DNA from: Synechococcus sp. JA-3-3Ab
GTDB taxonomy: Bacteria; Cyanobacteriota; Cyanobacteriia; Thermostichales; Thermostichaceae
Reading direction: 5' to 3'
Assembly (NCBI RefSeq): GCF_000013205.1
Contig: NC_007775.1
Span: forward strand, 2,811,001 to 2,875,000
DNA: 64,000 nucleotides
Shown here: positions 41,264-55,601 of the stretch, in pieces
How the letters are laid out: each line of letters opens with the position of its first letter
Numbering within the stretch: the first letter of the stretch is position 1
The notes under the pieces: generated by a model
What the model was told of the DNA's origin: nothing
The model's database searches: none
What the model saw: the letters and a program-made list of their open reading frames with translations, nothing else
Position numbers and translations under genes: made by a program

Positions 41264-44200
41264 CTAGGCCTCCAAATCCTGCAAGTACTGGCGAATGTCG
41301 GCCAAGATCCGCTCCAGCTCCTCCAGCTTCTGGGAAGCGCTGGCCCAGGCTAGCTCATCAGCCTGGGATCCCGGCTGGGCCAATCCCACCCCTAGGTGCT
41401 CCAGCTCGCGGGCTGCTTGAGAAAAGGCATGGGCCCCCACGTTGGCGCTAGCCCCTTTGAGGCGGTGGGCAACTTTCCGCAGCTCTTCAGGGTCACCTTT
41501 CGTAACCGCTTGGCGCAGGTGCGGCAACTGGTTCTGGCAATCTTGGACAAACACCTGCAGCAGCTCCCGCTGAAACTGGCGGTCTCCGCCGGTAACTCGA
41601 TCCAAGTAGGCGGCGTCGATGGGGTAGGGCAGCGTGGGAGCAGAGTTGCCGTTGGCGCCCTCAGCAGAAGGGGGATCGGGCGAGGCAGGCCCATTGGCTG
41701 CTCCTGTTGCGGAGGGAGCGATCCTTTGGCTCCAGTGGTTGAGCACTCTTTCCAGATCCTCCTTCAGCACCGGTTTACTGAGATAGTCGTCCATGCCAGC
41801 TTGCAAGCAGCGCTCCCGATCCTCCTGCATGGCGTTGGCTGTAATGGCGATCACCACGGTGCGGTGGCCGGATCCCCGCTCCTGCTGGCGTAGGCGGCGG
41901 GTGGCCTCGTAGCCATCCATCACCGGCATTTGGCAATCCATGAGGATGAGGTCGTACTGGACTCGCTGCAACAGATCCAGCACCTCCTGTCCGTTGGCCA
42001 CCACATCCGCCATATAGCCCAGGCTCTGGAGCTGGCGCAGGGCCACCTTCTGGTTGACGGGGTTGTCTTCGGCCAAGAGAATGCGCAAAGGTTGCTGGGG
42101 GCGGCTGGCCGAGGGCGCACTTTGCGAAAGGGGTGGGCCCATGCCCAGCAGCGAGGTGGCCAGGCCGGAAGACTTGCCCAGGGCCATGACCAGAGCTTCT
42201 TGCAACCGCGTTTGTTTGACCGGCTTGGTCAGGTAGGCGGCAAAGCCGATTTCGGCGGCGCGGCGGGAGTGTTCTCCCAACCCCAGCGAGGTCATCATCA
42301 CCAGTTGCGTCTGGGACAATTCGGGATCCGCCTTGATCCAGCGGCCCAGGGTCTCCCCATCCACCTCCGGCATCTGCATGTCCAAAACCGCCAAGGGGAA
42401 AGGGATCCCTTCCCGCGCAGCCTGGCGCAGCTTGTCCAGAGCTTGATAGGCGTTCTCGGCCTCTTCCACCACCATGCCCCAAGCGGTGGCCTGGTAGCGG
42501 ACAATCTTGCGGTTGGTGGCGTTGTCATCGACTACCAACAGCCGCTTGCCCTGGAGATCGACAGGGATGCGGGCGGGCTGCTGGGAGATCTGTCGGGCGT
42601 AGGGCTGTCTTTCCAGGGTGAGTTCGAGGCTGAAGGTGCTGCCGCGGCCCTCCTCGCTCTCCAGGAAGATCCGACCTCCCATCAGCTCTGTCAGTTGCTT
42701 GCAAATGGCCAGGCCCAGCCCTGTGCCCCCGTATTTGCGGGTGGTGGAAGCATCCACCTGGGTAAAGGGCTGAAATAGCTTGGTTTGAGCATCCTTGGGG
42801 ATCCCGATCCCTGTATCCCTTACCGAAAGCCGGAGCTGGACGTGGGTGGCTGTTTCCTGCATCAGCTCGGCCTGGATGACCACCTCCCCCTGATGGGTAA
42901 ACTTAATGGCATTGCTTACCAAATTGTTGAGGATTTGCCGCAGGCGCGACGCATCCCCCCGCAGATAGCGCGGCACTTCCGGCGGCACGAGCACCGCCAG
43001 CTCCAGGCCCTTGGCATGGGCAGTGGGGGCAAACAGATCCGCCACCTCTTCCAGACACGAGCGGAGATCGAAATCCAGGATCTCCAGCTCCATTTCCCCG
43101 ACCTCCAATTTGGAGAAGTCCAGGATGTCGTTGATGAGGGTGAGCAGCGCATCGCCGCTGACGCGGATTGTCTCTACAAAGTCTCGCTGTTCTGCATTGA
43201 GGGGGGTCTCCAGCAGCAGGCCCGTCATCCCCAACACCGCGTTCATGGGGGTGCGGATCTCGTGGCTCATGGTGGCCAAGAAGCTGCTTTTGGCCTGGGC
43301 AGCCTGCTCTGCTGCTTTGCGGGCTTGTTCCAGCTCCAGGCTGCGCTTTCTCTCCCGCTCCAAAAGGGCTGCCTGGGTGAGGGCAATGCCAATTTGGTTG
43401 GCCAACTGCGACAGCAGCTCCATCTCAAACGGCTGCCACTGACGCGGGCCAGAGCACTGGTGGGCCAGCAACAACCCCCACAACTGCTGCTCCAAAAACA
43501 GCGGCACCACCATGTTGGCCCTGACCTGCATTTTTTGCAGCAGCTCTAGGTAACAAGGCTCCAGTCCTTCACTTTCCACATCGCTAACAACACGAACGCG
43601 GCCCTGGCTGTAGAGCTGGGCGTATTTCTCCTGAAAACAGGGATCCTCGATCACCTCTCCTGCCAGCGAGGGGATCCCCGGCTGAGTTTTCTCGTTGGAG
43701 ATGATCCCAGAACCATCCGGCTGGAAGCGGTAGACCAAGACTCGGTCGGCTTTGAGCAGGGCTTGGATTTCTGTTACCGCCGTCTCTAGGATCTCGGCGA
43801 TATCCAAAGATTCGCGGATCTTCAAGCTGAGATTGGCTAGCAACTGAGCCCGGCGGTTTTGCCGCTCCAATTCCTCTGCCGCTTTCTTCTGCTCGGTAAT
43901 GTTGCGGAAGATGCCCCGCGTAGCCACCATTACCCCATCTTCAAAGCGGCAGTTGACATTGCCCTCCACCCAAACGGTTTCACCGCTGGCCGTGAGGAAA
44001 GCTGTCTCTACCCTCTCCAGTTTCTCCCCTGCTAGAAGCTTCTGGAAAAGAGCCTGGCAGTGCTCCCGGCAGTCGGGATGGAGAATGTCGAAGAGGGTCA
44101 TTTGATAAACTTGAGCTTCGTCATAGCCCAAGGTCTCTTTCCAAGCGCGGTTGACATATAAAAAGTGCCCTTCAGCATCCACGCTTTGGATGAGGTCAGT

Positions 44201-45835
44201 GGCATTTTCAAAGAGATCCCGGTAGCGCTCTTCGCTTTCTCTCAAGGCCAGCTCCGCCAGCTTGCGGTCGGTGATGTCGATGCCGGTGCCCATGACAAAC
44301 TCCACCTCGCCGGCAGCGTTGATTAGGGCGGTGTTAGACCAAGAAATAAGCCGCAGTGCCCCTTGCTTGGTGCGCCAAAAATTCTCATGGCGATTCAAAA
44401 AGAGGGAATGATTGCCCTTGAGCTGTTCAAAAGCTTGCTTCACACCAGGCACATCTTCCGGCGGGATCAAACCCAAATCCCATAGCAGCCGGCCCTTGAC
44501 CTCTGCCAGCGAGTAGCCAGAAAGCTGCTCGGCAGCGCGGTTGAAGCGCAGGATACGCCCTTCTGGATCCATGACCACCACCAGCGCCCCTGCTGTATCA
44601 ATAACCGCGTTGGTAAAATCCCGCTCTTGCTTGAGGGATCGTTCTGCCTCTTCTCGCTCGGCAGTCTCCCGGCGGATGAGGAAGTAAACCGAGGCCAAAA
44701 CCAGGTAAGTAAAAATGAGCCCGCCAAAAGCAATGAGATTGGTTCTAACCCAGGCAAACTGAAATTCCTGGCTGCGTTGCTGCAGAAGGCGATTCTCCTC
44801 CTGCTGCAGCACCCGAATCAACTCGACAATTTGCTCCATTAACCTTGGCCCTTCGCTGCTTTCCAGGGCTTCCTGGGTGGCGAGTAGCCCCTCTTGCTCC
44901 CTCAGCCGGATCAAGTCTTGGATGACTCGTAGCCGTTGCTCCAGCAGCAGCTCTAGGCGCTTCAGGCGCTCTTGCTGCAGGGGGTTGTCAGCAGTGAGCT
45001 CTTTCAACAAGCGCAGATGGGTGGAGGTGGCTTCAAGGCTGGCTTGGTACTCACTGAGATAGCGAGGATTATTGGTCAGAAGATAACCATATTGACCGGC
45101 CTCGGCGGCGCCGGTTTCCGCCAGCAATCCTTCCAAGTTTTGGATCACTTTTAGAGTGTGGGCCACTCGTTCTGTAAGCTGCGGCAGTTGAGAGGCATTC
45201 CGCTGAGCTGAGTAGGTGATCCCGCCCAAAAGCAAGGCAGCCAGGCCAAAACCGGCGGTAACTTTGAGGAGAAAGCGGTTTTTGCGGGCAGGTTTAGTAT
45301 CCCCCGACTTAGGCAGCAGAGGCGTCTGAGCCAGTTCCCTCAAAGTACGGCGCAGCTCCAGTTGGGCCACCACCTGATGGGCCAGGGCTTGTAATTGCTC
45401 CAGTTGTTCTGGGGTCAGGTGCCGAGGCTGATAATCGACAACGCAAAGCGTGCCCAGGGCCTGCCCTTCTGGAGTTACCAAGGGAATGCCAGCATAGAAG
45501 CGGATGTGGGGCTCTTGCGTAACAAACGGGTTGTCGGCAAAGCGGGGATCCTGAGTGGCATCGGGCACCACCAGCGGCTCTTGGGGAGACAAGATGGCGT
45601 GGGCGCAGAAGGCCACATCCCGTGGGGTCTCCTGCACATCGACGCCGAATTTGGCTTTAAACCACTGGCGGTGTTCGTCGATAAGGCTGACCAGAGCTAT
45701 GGGCGTGCCGCAGATGTAGGCGGCAAGGCGGACGATCTCGTCAAAGGCAGTTTCAGGCGCCGTATCGAGAATCTGATACTGCCGCAGGGCAGCCAGCCGC
45801 TCTTTTTCGTTGGGAGGGAGGGGGGCTTTGGGCAT
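41264..45835 (-). CDS. Membrane hybrid histidine kinase with DXCF-type cyanobacteriochrome-like GAF domain
   Basis: 1523 residues. Order: GAF1 (about 10-165), transmembrane helix (about 187-207), extracytoplasmic CHASE3-like region, second helix (about 368-388), PAS (405-520), PAS (535-655), GAF2 (670-825), HisKA with SHEIRTP (about 865), HATPase_c with N-box [16 protein letters not shown] and GGTGLGLAI, two REC domains (VVDDN and AEDN starts; LDMQMP and MDCQMP phospho-Asp sites) and a C-terminal HPt with [15 protein letters not shown]2 has DPCF (Cys733) and EPCYLELL (Cys761), exactly 28 apart as in DXCF cyanobacteriochromes, plus [10 protein letters not shown] and WGLLLAHQC; the His usually after the second Cys is Tyr. 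It may sense blue/green or related light and relay phosphate internally. No output regulator is adjacent. Confidence 0.92.
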
Positions 45836-46205: not shown

Positions 46206-46583
46206 GTGCAAAAAGTTCAAGAAAGTTTGGTCGCTGCCTTAGCCATTGATGGGGCCATAGGCGTTGCGCTCGGCGACTGGAAGAGCGGCATGTGCCTGGG
46301 GTTTAAGGGTACCAACGCCCCTGCTTTTCCTGAACGAAACTTGGAGTTAGCCGTAGCAGGCATGACCGAGGTTATTCGGTCTAAGTTTCGAGTTTTGGAG
46401 TCTGTAGGCGTTAAGGAGGATCTGGAAGAGATTCTCATTGTTCTAAAGGCGCAATACCATCTTGTCCGAGTAGTGAGGTCTGTCCGAGGGCTGTTTTTCT
46501 ATCTTGTTATGGATCGAGAGAAGGGTAACCTGGCTCTTGCCCGCATCAAGCTAGACCAGATTGCAGAGCAGCTATCAATCTAG
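46206..46583 (+). CDS. Roadblock/LC7-like protein 1
   Basis: 125 residues with GTG start; GGGGAGGG at 46193-46200 lies five bases upstream and rules out the TTG 15 bases earlier. Pattern: an N-terminal helix, LAIDGAIGVALGDWKSG hairpin, a long helix (AVAGMTEVIRSKFRVL), EEILIVLKAQYHLVRVV strands, LFFYLVMDREKGNLALARIK final strand-helix. This beta-alpha layout matches small Roadblock/LC7 (MglB-like) proteins, which dimerise and often regulate Ras-like GTPases; the assignment is by pattern. First of three tandem paralogues, followed by a strong terminator at 46611. Confidence 0.75.
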   Translation: MQKVQESLVAALAIDGAIGVALGDWKSGMCLGFKGTNAPAFPERNLELAVAGMTEVIRSKFRVLESVGVKEDLEEILIVLKAQYHLVRVVRSVRGLFFYLVMDREKGNLALARIKLDQIAEQLSI

Positions 46584-46610
46584 TCCAGGTCAAGGCTCTT
46601 GTAAGTAAAG

Positions 46611-46640
46611 GCAGAGCTGAAAAAGGCTCTGCTCTTTTTT
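46611..46640 (+). terminator. Rho-independent terminator after Roadblock gene 1
   Basis: GCAGAGC at 46611-46617, loop of eight, GCTCTGC at 46626-46632, then TCTTTTTT. The stem is perfect and the T tract long, so the first Roadblock gene is likely a transcript of its own. Confidence 0.75.
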
Positions 46641-46841
46641 GCCCAAGCAGTTAAATCTCTCCTATCTAGTTCTGCCCAGCCTTGCGGCGTAGCTCCTGCT
46701 TCTCGCCTTGCTTCTTTCTTTTCTAGCAAGCGTGAATTACGATATAGCTGGGTTAAGTGTGGAACACTGCTGGCCTCATGTCAAGTTATCTAGATAGCTG
46801 TGACAACAATGCTGGCAAGTAGTCAAGTAGTAAGGTAGGAA

Positions 46842-47252
46842 ATGGGGAATACACCTATGGCTACGCTGGAGGAGATTTTTCTGGAGGCTCTTGCTATCGG
46901 CGGAGCGCTGGGTGTTGCCCTGGGAGATTGGAGAAGCGGCGCCTGCTTGGGAGCTAAGTCTGCAGATGCCTCTGCTTTTCCTGAGCGCGATCTATCGCTG
47001 GCCATAGCCGGCAACTCGGAAGTGCTGCGCAGCAAACTCAGGGTTGCAGAGGCTCTGAACCAGCGGTTACAGGAGATCATTATAGTTTCCCAAGAACAGT
47101 ATCATTTGATCCGTTTAGTCAACAGCCGCGGGCTGTTCATCTACCTGGCCTTGGATCTAGAAAAGGCCAACTTGGCCTTGGCTCGTATCAAGTTGGAGCA
47201 GCTTGCAGAGCAGTTGGGCCAGTTGCCGCTCAAAACTTCAAGGATAATCTAA
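46842..47252 (+). CDS. Roadblock/LC7-like protein 2
   Basis: 136 residues. Shares with paralogue 1 the runs ALGDW(K/R)SG, CLG, (A/S)AFPER(N/D)L, (V/L)RSK, QYHL(V/I)R and NLALARIKL. ATG 46842 has TAGGA just upstream; ATG 46857 is an alternative. The final helix is followed by a short basic tail. Roadblock assignment is by pattern, as for paralogue 1. Confidence 0.75.
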   Translation: MGNTPMATLEEIFLEALAIGGALGVALGDWRSGACLGAKSADASAFPERDLSLAIAGNSEVLRSKLRVAEALNQRLQEIIIVSQEQYHLIRLVNSRGLFIYLALDLEKANLALARIKLEQLAEQLGQLPLKTSRII

Positions 47253-47385
47253 AAGCTTTTCTCTCCGTAAGCCCCTGGCTGAAGAAATCCAGGATGCTCA
47301 GCCCTCTAGATTTAAAGTTTAAAGATATTGTTAACCCTCCTGGGTGCGTGTTAAGCTTTGCAGAAGAGCAGGAGGGCTTTAGGCT

Positions 47386-47852
47386 GTGCAAAACATTCAG
47401 AATGCTCTAGTGAAAGCCTTTCCATCGACGGAGTCTTGGGAGCTGCTTTTGCAGACTGGAGAAGAGGTGAATGCTTAGCCTATCAACTCAGCACGGACGC
47501 CAGTGGTTTTTCGCAGGCTGAAATGATGTTGCTGGTAGCCAGCAGCTCAGAAGTGATTAGAAACAAAGCTACGCAAAGTGAAAAATCTGGGGAAAAAATT
47601 GCGGAAATAATTTTCGTTTACGAAGAGTTCTTTTACATCATCCGAGTGGCTAACGCCATAACTGGCCTGTTCTTCCTTCTAGTTTTAGAACAAGACAAGG
47701 CCAACCTAGCCCATGCTCGCCTGAAGCTTGCTCAAATAGCCTCTGAGAAAAAACTAGGCCCATTGTCTGCTCAGAAGCCCGCTTGCTGCCCAAACCCTCA
47801 ATGCGGAACCGGGGACTTGAACCCCGATGGCATTGCTGCCACTAGAACCTGA
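47386..47852 (+). pseudogene. Roadblock/LC7-like copy 3, frameshifted and run into tRNA-Leu
   Basis: GTG 47386 with AGGAGGG at 47370-47376 begins VQNIQNALVKA, collinear with paralogue 1 (VQKVQESLVAA). At about 47418 the frame breaks: homology resumes as LSIDGVLGAAFADWRRG in the frame shifted by one base, consistent with loss of one base. The shifted frame has no own SD and starts only from a weak TTG at 47358. Its end reads about 17 residues into the antisense of tRNA-Leu before stopping at 47852. It is probably decayed, unless ribosomal slippage or a sequencing error is involved. Confidence 0.7.
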
Positions 47853-47884
47853 ATCTAGCGCGTCTACCATTCCGCCAGTTCCGC
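47802..47884 (-). tRNA. tRNA-Leu (anticodon CAG)
   Basis: On the minus strand GCGGAACTGGCGGAATGG starts the molecule; the acceptor GCGGAAC pairs with GTTCCGC, discriminator A. The anticodon arm CTAGA-TTCAGGT-TCTAG shows anticodon CAG; a long variable arm and the T arm GGGGTTCAAGTCCCC follow. The 83-base length with a class II variable arm fits tRNA-Leu. Confidence 0.95.
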
Positions 47885-48005
47885 AGGGATCTATAAGTCT
47901 GCCCAAGAAAAGGGATCCCTGTCAAGGGCAGAGGCAGGTTCTGCAAAGGGATCCTACTCTTATGCTAAGCTCGGCTGCGCACGCAATGGATCCAGAGCGC
48001 TAACT

Positions 48006-49109
48006 TTGGCGGCTTTTACTTTTGTTTGCGAGGGCACCTGCCCCAACACGCAGGCGCGGGCGGGATATTTCATCACCCCCCACGGCGAAATTCCCACCCC
48101 TTGCTTCATGCCGGTGGGAACTCTGGCCAACGTGAAGACCCTCACCCCTGCCCAGCTTAAGGAAACCGGTGCCCCCATCCTTCTCTGCAACACCTACCAC
48201 CTCCACCTGCAGCCTGGCGAGAGCATCATCCAAGAAGCAGGGGGGCTACACCACTTTATGGGCTGGCCGGGCCCCATCCTCACCGACTCGGGGGGTTTCC
48301 AGGTCTTCAGCCTCAGCGCCATTCGCAAAATTGACGAGGAAGGGGTGACCTTCCGCTCCCCCTACGACGGGCGTCTGGTTCGCTTTACCCCTGAGCTTGC
48401 CATTCAAATCCAAAATGCCTTGGGCGCGGACATCATCATGGCTTTTGATGAGTGTCCCCCCTACCCTGCTAGTCCAGAAGCGGTAGCTGCAGCGGTGCGG
48501 CGAACCAATCAGTGGCTGAAGCGCTGTGTAGAGGCCCATCGCCGTTCAGATCAAGCCTTGTTTGGCATTGTCCAGGGAGGGGTTTACCCAGAGCTGCGCC
48601 ACCAGGCGGTGGAAGAGGTCTGTCGGTTGGATCTGCCGGGGTATGCCATTGGCGGGGTGAGTGTAGGAGAGCCAGTGGAGCTGATGCACGCGGTGGTACG
48701 ACAAACAGCTCCTCTGTTGCCGGCGGATCGCCCCCGTTATCTTATGGGGGTAGGCACCTATGCCGAGATGCGGGCGGCAGTGGCTGCTGGAGTGGATTTG
48801 TTTGACTGCGTGATCCCCACCCGTTATGCTCGCCATGGTACGGTAATCAGCCGGGGCAAACGCTGGAACATCAAGAATGCCGAACACCGCCGCAGCCTAG
48901 ATCCCATTGATCCCGACTGTCCCTGCTACACCTGCCGCCACTTTAGCCGCGCCTACCTGTGTCACCTCATCCGCGCAGGGGAGCTTCTGGGCTACACTCT
49001 GCTTTCTATCCACAACATCACTGAGCTAGTGCGCTACATGCAGAAAATGCGCCAGGCCATCCTGGAAGGTAAGTTTCATGAGAACTGGGATCCGTGGCGC
49101 GAGGGCTGA
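48006..49109 (+). CDS. tgt: Queuine/preQ1 tRNA-guanine transglycosylase
   Basis: Exchanges guanine 34 for preQ1 in GUN-anticodon tRNAs. The 367-residue protein starts at TTG 48006. Signatures: [13 protein letters not shown] with the catalytic-region Asp, [11 protein letters not shown], a nucleophile Asp in [10 protein letters not shown], and a zinc site [17 protein letters not shown]. Full length and intact. Confidence 0.95.
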
Positions 49110-49210: not shown

Positions 49211-49822
49211 ATGGCTATTCGCACCCTGCAAAGTGTAATTGAGCAGCATATTCCTGGGCTCCCTGGCCTCATCGCCGTCTTGGTAGGGCGGGTCACGGAT
49301 GGCAAAACGGTAGCCAAAGTAACTTACGCCCGCGATGCCCAGGAAGAACAGGCGCTGGAACTTTTGGGCACCTACGCCAGCGATTTGCTCCAAGCCAACA
49401 ACCGCCTTTGCCAAACGGTCAGCCCTGAGGAGGAGACGGATTACCTCACAACGGGCTCATCTCATGTGCGGGTGATCCTGAAGTCTTTCCCCAAAAGTCA
49501 CTACTTTGTTTTGTTTTTGACCCGCTCCATCACCGACCTCAAAGCAATTTCAGAGCGGATCAAAGCTATCCTCATCGACGGCAAACCGCTGCTGCCTCCT
49601 GTTCAAGACGGCACCCTATCCACTGCTCAGGCTTTGATTAGCTACGCCAAGCGCTACGCTCCGGATCCCAACTTTGTCATGCTGCGCTTGTCCCTAAAAA
49701 CGGGCATTGACCGCATCCGCCTAGAAAAAGGCACCCTAAACCCCCAGGAGCTCCGCATTCTCCACAAAGCGGTATCTGAGGTATTGGGGGTAGAGCGCTT
49801 GCCTATTGCCTTGCCTAGCTAA
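49211..49822 (+). CDS. Possible longin/roadblock-like protein, unknown
   Basis: 203 residues with excellent GGAGAGGAG before ATG 49211. The first 120 residues show a helix, LIAVLVGRVTDGK hairpin, a helix (QALELLGTYASDLLQANNRL) and HVRVILKSFPKSHYFVLFLTR strands, which would fit a longin or Roadblock-like fold, but this is weak. The last 80 residues (PDPNFVMLRLSLKTGIDRIR) are a separate helical region. A function is unknown. Lies 64 bases before the V4R-like protein gene. Confidence 0.7.
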   Translation: MAIRTLQSVIEQHIPGLPGLIAVLVGRVTDGKTVAKVTYARDAQEEQALELLGTYASDLLQANNRLCQTVSPEEETDYLTTGSSHVRVILKSFPKSHYFVLFLTRSITDLKAISERIKAILIDGKPLLPPVQDGTLSTAQALISYAKRYAPDPNFVMLRLSLKTGIDRIRLEKGTLNPQELRILHKAVSEVLGVERLPIALPS

Positions 49823-49885: not shown

Positions 49886-51127
49886 ATGTTGGAGCATCTA
49901 CGCCTTGACCGCGAGCGCAAGCTCATTTCTCTCTTTGGCGAGCCGGTGATTTTCCACTGCCACCACTACAACCTATTCCTGCAGCAGACCATTGAGGATC
50001 CCGACTGGATTGACGGGGTGAGCATCCTGCGCAAGGCAGCTCAGGAGATCTTCTACAGCTTGCTCCAAGGTGCTTTTAAGACTTTGGGAGTGCAGCAGGC
50101 AGCAGAGCGGCTGGCGGTGGCATCCCAGGTGTTCAGCTTTCTCGGCTTGGGGCGACTGGAGCTGCAGGCCAGCCCCAGCGGCGGCGAAGCCCAGCTCACC
50201 CACTCCCACTACGCAGAAGGCTGGCTGAGCAAGTACGGGGATCAGCTCAACCGCACCCGCCCTATCGACCACTTGGCCGTGGGCTATGTGGCAGCGGCGC
50301 TGGATGCCACTTTTGCCGAGCTGGGCAGCTACACGGCAGAGGAAACGGAGTGCATGGCGGTTACGCGCAAGGATTGCTGCGTGATCCAGGCTACTCGGCT
50401 GTCGCGGCCTCAATCTTTGATCCCTAGCCCCGGCATGGGCAAGCTCATCGAACGTCCCGCCGATCTGCCCAAGCCGATAACAGCAGTGGACTACGACGCA
50501 GTCAACGAGGCCTTATGGAGCTTGCCTTTAGCTGGGGATGAACGAGGCCAGATTCGCGCCTTTAACGTGCTGCTCACGCGCATGCCCGCCAACTACTACA
50601 ACCGCATCCAGTACCGCTTTTTGGAAGAGCTGAAAGCAGTGCAACCCGGTCTGCAGCAGGTGGCAGAGGATCTGATCCGCGAATCGGGCCATGTCTGTAT
50701 GTTCTACACCTTTGGCAACCTCATGGAGTCGCTGGAGTGGGAGACTCTTGTGGGGCCAATGCTGGAAAAGGATACCGACTGGATCCACGGGGCCTATGCC
50801 GTAGCCAGCAGTTTGGGCTGGGGGCGCTGGCAGGCGCTGGAGGTGGTGAGCAATCATTCCTGCCGGGTAGCGATTGACGGCAACTACGAGACCAACTACT
50901 TTTTGGCTTCCCACCCACGGGCAGATTATCCGACCTGCTATTTTGCCCAAGGGGCGGTGCCGGCGCTGATGAATCTGGTCTACAACGGCAACATTCAGCA
51001 GAAGCCGATTCTGGATCAAGTCTTCTACAACCGCCTCTTCCAGCGAGGTGGGCTGTTTTGCGGGAAGGAGACCAAAGCCAGAGAGAAAGGGGATCCCTGG
51101 TGTGAGTTCTACGCTGAGCGGATTTAG
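49886..51127 (+). CDS. Protein with two tandem V4R-like halves
   Basis: 413 residues in two halves with the same layout. Half 1 has LGLGRLEL, a central HYAEGWLSKYG, then EETECMAVTRKDCCVIQ at the end; half 2 has LGWGRWQALEV, NYETNYFLASH and AKAREKGD-like ending with KETKAREKGDPWCEFY. The G-x-G entry and C-x-x-x-(K/G)-(D)-x-C-x-(I/F) finish resemble the V4R (4-vinyl reductase-type small-molecule-binding) domain. I infer a sensor or carrier built by internal duplication. The ligand is unknown. The small gene at 51134 follows after six bases. Confidence 0.7.
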   Translation: MLEHLRLDRERKLISLFGEPVIFHCHHYNLFLQQTIEDPDWIDGVSILRKAAQEIFYSLLQGAFKTLGVQQAAERLAVASQVFSFLGLGRLELQASPSGGEAQLTHSHYAEGWLSKYGDQLNRTRPIDHLAVGYVAAALDATFAELGSYTAEETECMAVTRKDCCVIQATRLSRPQSLIPSPGMGKLIERPADLPKPITAVDYDAVNEALWSLPLAGDERGQIRAFNVLLTRMPANYYNRIQYRFLEELKAVQPGLQQVAEDLIRESGHVCMFYTFGNLMESLEWETLVGPMLEKDTDWIHGAYAVASSLGWGRWQALEVVSNHSCRVAIDGNYETNYFLASHPRADYPTCYFAQGAVPALMNLVYNGNIQQKPILDQVFYNRLFQRGGLFCGKETKAREKGDPWCEFYAERI

Positions 51128-51133
51128 GGATCC

Positions 51134-51430
51134 ATGCAGGTGCGCATCCTCAGGCGGCGGGAGTGTGGAACGGGCTGGGCCACAGACCTGCTGCTGCCGC
51201 GCTGCCTGAGCTGGCCGGAGGTGGAAGAGCTGGCCCGGGAGATAGGGGCCACCTGCCGCTGCTTTCAAAAGCAACTGGTGTGGTTGGATCTGCCGGCAGG
51301 ACGGATTACGGCTTCTTTGCGGGTGCCTCGCCTAACTTTGCGGCTCTACGACGCCGCTGTTGAGGCCCAGATCCTAAACCACTTGCAGCAGTTGGTGAAG
51401 TCGGTTGATCCTAAGATCCAGGGGCCATAG
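51134..51430 (+). CDS. Small protein, unknown
   Basis: 98 residues beginning MQVRILRRRECGTGW with one Cys pair (CRC) and a strand-rich centre (LVWLDLPAGRITASLRVPRLTLRLY). No family recognised. It starts six bases after the V4R-like gene and probably is co-translated with it. The gene ends 26 bases before the left end of the IS630 element. Confidence 0.55.
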   Translation: MQVRILRRRECGTGWATDLLLPRCLSWPEVEELAREIGATCRCFQKQLVWLDLPAGRITASLRVPRLTLRLYDAAVEAQILNHLQQLVKSVDPKIQGP

Positions 51431-51566: not shown

Positions 51567-51965
51567 ATGCCGACTCATTCTTTGGATTTGCGGCAAAGAG
51601 TTGTAGCAGCCTATCAGGCAGGTAACACCTCCATCCGCCAGGTAGCTAAACGCTTCATGGTGACCAAAAGAACAGTACACCGCTGGGTGCGTCAGTACCA
51701 ACAAACTCAAGATTTAGCTCCTAAGAAAGCAGGCACCAAGCGAGTGGGCATTTTGGAACAACATCGGCAGGAAGTGATGGCAATTATTACAGAACACCCA
51801 GACTTCTACCTGTGGCAGTATCAAGAACTGTTGCGCGAGCGCTTAGGAATCAATGTAAGCATCGTCACGATACATAATTTCTTGAAAAAGCAAGGAATGG
51901 CTCTAAAAAAAAGACCTACCGCAGTGCAAAAGTCAAATAAGAGGAGGTGCAAAGGGAACGACTAG
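51567..51965 (+). pseudogene. IS630 transposase, N-terminal half
   Basis: 132 residues. Begins PTHSLDLRQRVVAAYQAGNT, a winged-helix/HTH start typical of IS630/Tc1-mariner, with a second helix-turn-helix at SIRQVAKRFMVTKRTVHRWV. An A8 run at 51905-51912 sits where IS630 elements often shift frame; a -1 shift there gives KTYRSAKVK but meets TAA at 51938. Confidence 0.85.
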
Positions 51966-52003
51966 CTTATAGTTAAGAAGTCAGGAATATTCCAGCAGAG
52001 GAT

Positions 52004-52513
52004 TTGATTGCCATCGACCAGACGGCAGTCTGGGAGGGAATGGAGCGGAGAGTATCTCGGAGTTTACGTGGTCAACGGGCTTATCATTATCGTCAGAGAT
52101 ACAAGGGTGAAAAGTATACAGTTATTGGAGCTATTTCCTTGAGAGGTGTAGTTGGCTGTCGTGTCATCAAGGGTGGGATGAAGAAAGGAGATTTTTTGGA
52201 GTTTTTGAGAAGCGAGCTATGTCTGAAGCTAGATGCGAGGAAGGTTGTGATTATGGACAATTTAAATATCCACAAGAGTCGGGAAGTTGAGGAATTGATT
52301 AGGGGGACAGGAGCACGAATCCTATACCTGCCTGTGTATGCGCCGGAGTTGAATCCCATTGAGATGATGTGGTCGGTGTTGAAGCATTTTATTCGGCAGC
52401 TTTGCAGAATTGGGAAATATAGCATGGAGCAGATAGTGAAGACTTCTTTACTACTGATCAATCCATCCTCCTTCCGAAGTTGGTTTGCTAAGTGCTGCTA
52501 TTGTACCCCTTGA
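52004..52513 (+). pseudogene. IS630 transposase, catalytic half
   Basis: 169 residues carrying DDE residues: IAIDQTAVWEG, IMDNLNIHKS and PELNPIEMMWSVLK, with 34 residues between the second Asp and Glu (DD34E). In the same frame upstream, two stops (51938, 51974) separate it from the N-terminal half, so full transposase cannot form by one frameshift. TTG 52004 is the first start codon; production of an isolated catalytic half is doubtful. Confidence 0.85.
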
Positions 52514-54497: not shown

Positions 54498-55601
54498 GTG
54501 CTAAGGGTATTGCAGGTAACAGAATCTAGCTTCTCGGGCGAGGCCGTGGGATCGATGGGAAGTGCAGAAACAGCTACAACTTGCAGCTTGGCCACCCTGT
54601 GGGCCCAAAAATATGTAGACAAGCTACGGGCGCAGGCGGCCTTGGGCGAGCTGCCGGGCGCCCAACTGGCCGACAAAGTGAAGGGATCCCTGCGCTTTGC
54701 CAGCTCCCAGGCCTGGGCCAAGACAGAGCGGCTCTTGGCTGCTGAAATACCCAAGCAGCGGCTGGATCCGGACTTGATCGATCCCTGGCAAATTGCCGAG
54801 GATTCTCGGGATTTATTTGAGGCGGCAGCGGAAAGTTGTGGGGAGGGCCTCTCGCCGGCTCGCTTTTCGGTGCAGATCGCGCCGCTCTGTGGCCGGCTGA
54901 GGGCCCGCTACAGCGAACGGGATCCGCGGGTGCTGGGCTTTTTAAGTATGCAATTCCACTACACGGGGCAAATGGTCTTGCAAGCCCTATCCCCTCAAGA
55001 GCGCGGCCTCTTCCACCCCTACTTGAAGGTCATGGACGACCACCTCTACATGCCCCTCCAGAGGATGTACGAGGGTGCCGCCGCCCATGCAGGCGATACC
55101 TTTTCCGCCCCCCTGGCTGCCGTGCAAGAGCTCTTGCCTCTGGTTACCAGCGTGGCAGAGTCCATCTGTGCTGAGGTGGCGCAGCGTTTCCCAGGCTATC
55201 GCTGCGAAAGCGGCCCCTTGACGGATCTGGAGGTGCGGATTTCCAGCATCCGCGATGTGGAGATGTTCCAGGTGTACTTGGGCCTCTGCGTCCTGGAAGG
55301 CAGTGTGGCGGCTGTCCAACAAGAGCTGTTTCCCCTGTGTGTGATGCTCTACCCTCCTTTGAAGGTGGAGTGGAAGCTGGTGCGGCAGATGCTGGAGCTT
55401 TTGGATGAGGCGCTGCGCTTTCAGCTCACCCCGGCCAGCTACACCGTCCTGCTGCCTTATCTGCGAGCCGTGCAGAGCATGTTCTCGCTGGAGGTTTTCC
55501 CCGAAAGCGACCCCATCTGGAGCCATCATCCTGACGTGATGCGCTTTATGGGAACGGCGCAGAACCTGTTGCAAGAACTGATGGGTCAAGGAGCTATCTG
55601 A
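54498..55601 (+). CDS. Unknown helical protein
   Basis: 367 residues from GTG 54498; an ATG at 54555 (residue 20) may be the true start since the first 19 residues look like leader sequence. The protein is almost wholly alpha-helical by residue pattern, soluble, with Leu/Gln-rich segments and FSLEVFPESDPIWSHHPDVMRF near the C-terminus. No domain recognised. Conserved-looking codon use and its length support a real gene. Convergent with mscS. Confidence 0.7.
   Translation: MLRVLQVTESSFSGEAVGSMGSAETATTCSLATLWAQKYVDKLRAQAALGELPGAQLADKVKGSLRFASSQAWAKTERLLAAEIPKQRLDPDLIDPWQIAEDSRDLFEAAAESCGEGLSPARFSVQIAPLCGRLRARYSERDPRVLGFLSMQFHYTGQMVLQALSPQERGLFHPYLKVMDDHLYMPLQRMYEGAAAHAGDTFSAPLAAVQELLPLVTSVAESICAEVAQRFPGYRCESGPLTDLEVRISSIRDVEMFQVYLGLCVLEGSVAAVQQELFPLCVMLYPPLKVEWKLVRQMLELLDEALRFQLTPASYTVLLPYLRAVQSMFSLEVFPESDPIWSHHPDVMRFMGTAQNLLQELMGQGAI

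Follow-up and report, generated by a model that had tools for sequence, protein, structure and literature searches.

The stretch of Synechococcus sp. JA-3-3Ab DNA analysed here (64,000 nucleotides, genome positions 2811001-2875000 on a single contig of 2,932,766 bases; hereafter the window) carries a tandem array of three paralogous genes. Gene 1 (46206..46583, + strand), which starts with GTG, encodes an intact, divergent protein of 125 aa with a predicted Roadblock fold. Gene 2 (46842..47252, +) encodes an intact, faster-evolving paralogue of 131-136 aa that starts at ATG 46842 or, more likely, at 46857, the start aligned with the rest of the family, and gene 3 (47358..47852, +) is a decayed copy. 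Genes 1 and 2 share 61% identity and gene 3 is 40-42% identical to both. The array of two intact and one broken paralogues described in the initial annotation is real. The motifs listed there as common to the three copies hold for genes 1 and 2 only; gene 3 has other variants at the equivalent places, namely FADWRRG, CLA, GFSQAEM, FFYIIR and NLAHARLKL. A whole-genome search with a profile built from the aligned copies retrieved exactly these three (E 1e-66 to 1e-70), and the same profile recovered the single-copy relatives in other genomes at E 1e-53 or better each, a resemblance well beyond chance.

Gene 3 is broken in two places. On the one hand, the N-terminus typical of the family, VQNIQNALVKA, from GTG 47386, is out of frame with the remainder of the gene. 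On the other hand, its own stop codon is gone, and for this reason the open reading frame terminates within the antisense of tRNA-Leu(cag). By this frame break and lost stop, gene 3 is a pseudogene; its terminal branch in the family tree has a length of 1.99.

Gene 1 is followed by an intrinsic terminator (46610..46642, +) made of a stem-loop (46610-46633) and a run of T. With a stem of 9 pairs, 5 of them G-C, it is the best terminator in the region, and the 51-nt segment 46600-46650 folds at -19.8 kcal/mol (z -2.88); consensus and folding thus support the earlier view that a strong terminator separates gene 1 from gene 2. Downstream of the array lie tRNA-Leu(cag) (47801..47885, - strand), a landmark conserved at this locus across the genus, and a homologue of tRNA-guanine transglycosylase (48006..49109, +), which we presume from its sequence to be tgt and which is the downstream neighbour in 6/6 genomes of the genus (83-92% identity). 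These two, both downstream, are the neighbours of the array gene conserved genus-wide. On the other side, a hybrid histidine kinase with the domain order CHASE3/GAF/PAS/HisKA/HATPase/REC/REC/Hpt (41264..45835, -) is transcribed divergently from the array.

The array family was detected in 25 of the 390 cyanobacterial genomes sampled (13 of 160 genera), 22 of which have full-length members; fragments that appear to be remnants were found in G027, G182 and G084, and these searches returned the family only from cyanobacteria. All five other members of the genus tested, as well as G007, have one copy each, and since the rest of the genus is single-copy, the array is attributed to local duplication. 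In the tree, gene 1 falls near the single-copy genes of the genus, to which it is the nearest of the three copies (66-69% identity to relatives), and genes 2 and 3 form long branches whose placement is not firmly resolved (support 71/60, with the long gene 3 branch). The most parsimonious account has the gene duplicating in place, gene 1 being the original copy: a lineage-specific tandem expansion from one to three copies, in which gene 1 would continue the ancestral single-copy gene, gene 2 would be a duplicate that has diverged and is still constrained, and the third copy would have become the pseudogene. Gene 1 has evolved faster than its neighbours, because its identity to relatives is lower than that of the kinase (89-91%) and tgt (92%) in G003 and G004. 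Where dS was computable, dN/dS was ~0.07-0.13 for genes 1 and 2 (~0.10 for gene 2 against G004), values that suggest constraint on both genes but, with dS for the most part at saturation, serve only as a guide.

The Roadblock/LC7 fold of gene 1 is supported by structure prediction. From an alignment of eight sequences, AlphaFold2 gave a model with pLDDT 92.9, pTM 0.88 and the element order H-E-E-H-E-E-E-H; three of the five models exceeded 91, and the remaining pair scored poorly (46.2 and 42.6). The top Foldseek matches were all Roadblock proteins (prob 1.00, E 1.4e-6, TM 0.7-0.8), including 3kye, MglB (6hjm, 1j3w and 3t12), LAMTOR and MglC (7ct3), and among the best matches was MglB, both as a free protein and bound to MglA. 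All 50 of the listed PDB matches are of Roadblock type, i.e., a Streptomyces Roadblock protein, MglB, LAMTOR/MP1-p14 subunits, Asgard Roadblocks and MglC. The Roadblock assignment made at the outset from the sequence is therefore borne out by prediction, with no family model detecting it. Indeed, scans against Pfam, NCBIfam and PHROGs and sequence searches of the PDB assigned the array proteins to no family with significance, and the weak matches to GATase_7, TRIQK and ribosomal S25 were set aside as chance. Pfam Robl_LC7 (PF03259) matched none of the array-family members and, in this genome, recognises a single gene outside the window; 7 of 28 family members touch another Roadblock-fold Pfam family, LAMTOR5, below threshold. 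A comparison of the array-family profile with that of the canonical cyanobacterial Robl_LC7 proteins was not significant (prob 1.5%, 44 columns aligned), which places the array proteins in a separate sequence family within the predicted fold. On its modelled structure, the array family is an unannotated Roadblock-fold family too divergent for standard databases.

Comparison with known Roadblock proteins helps to frame what this family may do. MglB, the Roadblock/LC7 regulator of MglA in Myxococcus and Thermus, resembles the array family in predicted fold, size and element order (TM 0.7-0.8), whereas the array proteins have no Robl_LC7 match, share only 10-20% identity with it and are neither linked to MglA nor co-occurring with it. 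The LAMTOR/Ragulator subunits, LAMTOR5 among them, are matched by fold and by weak LAMTOR5 profile hits; however, Ragulator is a eukaryotic lysosomal scaffold, the profile match of the array family is sub-threshold, and neither a Rag GTPase nor a Ragulator partner turned up. MglC (7ct3), a Roadblock adaptor without GAP activity, matches gene 1 with a TM of only ~0.6 and illustrates how a protein of this fold can work as an adaptor. By analogy with such proteins, the most likely role of the array proteins, which we hold with about even confidence, is that of small Roadblock adaptors independent of MglA. They would act as dimeric adaptors or scaffolds that join signalling proteins, as MglC or LAMTOR subunits do, and probably do not serve an MglA-type GTPase as its obligate GTPase-activating protein. 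An operon partner conserved across lineages was sought and none was found, no neighbour being common across them, so this role rests on fold analogy.

The main rival to an MglA-independent adaptor is regulation of the resident GTPase in the manner of MglB, with the products of genes 1 and 2 forming homo- or heterodimers that act on it and supply extra inputs, for example in phototaxis. The window contains no Ras-like GTPase, as initially observed, and one lies just outside, ~24 kb from the array: an MglA-like (Ras-like) gene at genome positions 2882905-2883444, within a row (2882905-2887649; L021:7905-12649) that also holds the canonical Robl_LC7 gene (2884109-2884498), a protoglobin gene and three DUF4388 genes. 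This proximity and the presence of MglB, free and MglA-bound, among the best fold matches speak for such a role. Against it, the resident GTPase comes with a Roadblock gene of its own alongside. The canonical protein shares its fold class with the array family by prediction and differs in that its gene adjoins MglA-like GTPase, protoglobin and DUF4388 genes. Across the 390 genomes, canonical Robl_LC7 and MglA co-occur in 118 of 125 cases (odds ratio 177, p 2e-66), and this near-perfect association shows that a real partnership is visible to the test. With one MglA subfamily searched by BLAST and counts that ignore phylogeny, the array family in contrast associates with MglA at chance: 8 of 25 carriers have the GTPase vs 117 of 365 other genomes (odds ratio 1.0, p = 1), and 16 of the 22 full-length carriers lack it. 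In G221 and G234, a check of the carriers with a Ras profile picked up further small GTPases of a single domain; the remaining matches, typed from ORF lengths, were mostly long multi-domain or translation-type proteins. The array family is thus independent of MglA at the sensitivity used, a general MglA partnership is rejected at that sensitivity, and the initial suggestion of signalling through a Ras-like GTPase finds no support in the co-occurrence counts; the rejection concerns MglA, and GTPases of other classes may be partners. An MglB-like role in this one genome we consider unlikely.

The divergent kinase offers another possible partner. Its second GAF domain contains DPCF as well as the canonical cysteine within PCYLELL, both conserved in G003 and G004, and judged against a definition of the DXCF motif drawn in part from PMC11284453, it is likely a DXCF cyanobacteriochrome; the label CBCR-like was hence justified by sequence. 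The array proteins could accordingly be light-signalling accessories of this kinase, within the common regulon initially proposed, as the divergent position, the DXCF GAF and the adjacency kept in G003 and G004 would suggest. A further point in favour, which also speaks for the adaptor reading, comes from genus g95, a group of large genomes, in three of which one of the family copies is found next to an operon of chemosensory genes (response regulators, tandem CheW, MCP and a CheA hybrid). However, the kinase adjoins an array-family gene only in G003 and G004. An orthologue (69-71% identity) is present but unlinked in G001, G002 (~95 kb away) and G005, and G007 has a relative of 55% identity, also unlinked, on another contig; meanwhile the array gene stays with tRNA-Leu and tgt throughout the genus. 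Because both genes are retained where their adjacency is lost, a shared regulon is not supported, and the kinase is rejected as a stable partner, which leaves the accessory role improbable. The locus also recalls a Streptomyces conservon, in which a histidine kinase, a Roadblock protein, a conserved protein and a GTPase are encoded together (PMC4316618). Both have a kinase gene adjoining Roadblock genes, but here the kinase is divergent, no GTPase lies in the cluster and the adjacency is not conserved, the kinase being linked in 2 of 6 relatives; a stable conservon-like cluster of kinase, Roadblock protein and GTPase was not seen.

Beyond tgt, the window holds a second Roadblock-like family. 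A 203-aa protein (49211..49822, +), with a predicted Roadblock-like N-terminal domain and a helical C-terminus, is the first of a conserved trio, followed by a V4R-like protein of 413 aa (49886..51127, +; Pfam V4R 20.8 bits, cut-off 31) and a conserved 98-aa protein (51134..51430, +). The V4R-like gene comes next after the 203-aa gene in 11/11 other genomes in which this locus was inspected (G001, G003, G004, G036, G049, G062, G087, G111, G146, G153 and G174), and the 98-aa gene is third wherever the locus extends far enough. In G003 the 203-aa gene is duplicated in tandem (L013:9008-10759). In the window, an IS630-like transposase gene, split over two open reading frames of which the second matches DDE_3, is inserted after the trio (51567-52513). 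Because just three sequences went into it, the AlphaFold2 model for the 203-aa protein is of no more than moderate quality (pLDDT 67.9); the top fold matches of this protein are LAMTOR/Ragulator proteins (E 3.3e-4, prob 1.00). When the 203-aa and array families were compared with hhalign, 99 columns aligned (prob 55%, E 1.2e-4), so the two families may be related.

Other neighbourhoods of the array family hint at signalling, with the function not fixed by them: in addition to the chemosensory operon, another g95 copy lies directly before a phycobilisome-domain-like (globin-like) protein in eight loci. The window encodes a homologue of this neighbour (54498-55601, 367 aa, with a weak phycobilisome-domain match), in which the position of the chromophore-type Cys is Ser in the aligned sequences. 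Relatives of the 367-aa protein occur in 148 of 390 genomes and are absent from G003 and G004, and for these reasons it stays a weak lead; its co-occurrence with the array family is likewise weak (p 0.03, and 0.12 for full-length members). Elsewhere, a phycobilisome-like protein lies near canonical Robl_LC7 at L131:5843-10846, L132:5741-10303 and L133, with an NB-ARC/TPR protein also nearby in L131 and L132 and a protoglobin in L131.

The possible kinship of the array and 203-aa families and the globin-like protein that adjoins the family gene in g95 raise a further possibility, that the array gene works with the 203-aa, V4R-like and phycobilisome-domain-like proteins in bilin or photosystem assembly. 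The trio and the array family differ in distribution, however: some genomes carry the trio and lack the array family, and in G002 and G005 the array gene occurs but the trio is missing. The globin-like protein shows the gaps and weak association given above; we regard such cooperation as very improbable. Least probable of all is that a dispensable gene was duplicated in tandem in a selfish or neutral manner, which would fit the gene 3 pseudogene, the patchy distribution and the remnants in three genomes, but sits poorly with a family present in every sampled member of the genus and with genes 1 and 2 that look constrained.

The preferred reading therefore remains that of MglA-independent Roadblock adaptors, and the trio of Roadblock-like, V4R-like and small proteins may be a better lead than the array. 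In Asgard archaea, Roadblock and TRAPPC3/V4R proteins have been discussed together (PMC10933270), and for cyanobacteria a clustering of V4R proteins with bilin-binding globins has been discussed (PMC10151467); a literature search, with most subscription journals outside it, found no paper on the cyanobacterial Roadblock/V4R trio. A broader proposal, and quite an unlikely one, is that cyanobacteria have a second, MglA-independent Roadblock system of several unannotated families, at least one of them in a conserved complex of Roadblock-like, V4R-like and small proteins that would be a bacterial counterpart of the Asgard sets of Roadblock and TRAPPC3/V4R proteins (PMC10933270).

The array alone does not answer a long-standing question. 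It does bring to light a family that profile searches miss, that occurs in cyanobacteria without an MglA-type GTPase and that is triplicated in one thermophile, and a single genome here offers a control pair, the canonical Robl_LC7 protein with MglA and the array without it. The usual view of Roadblock proteins is that they partner small GTPases. If the present reading is confirmed, bacterial Roadblock proteins would have been under-counted, and some of them would work without a standard GTPase.
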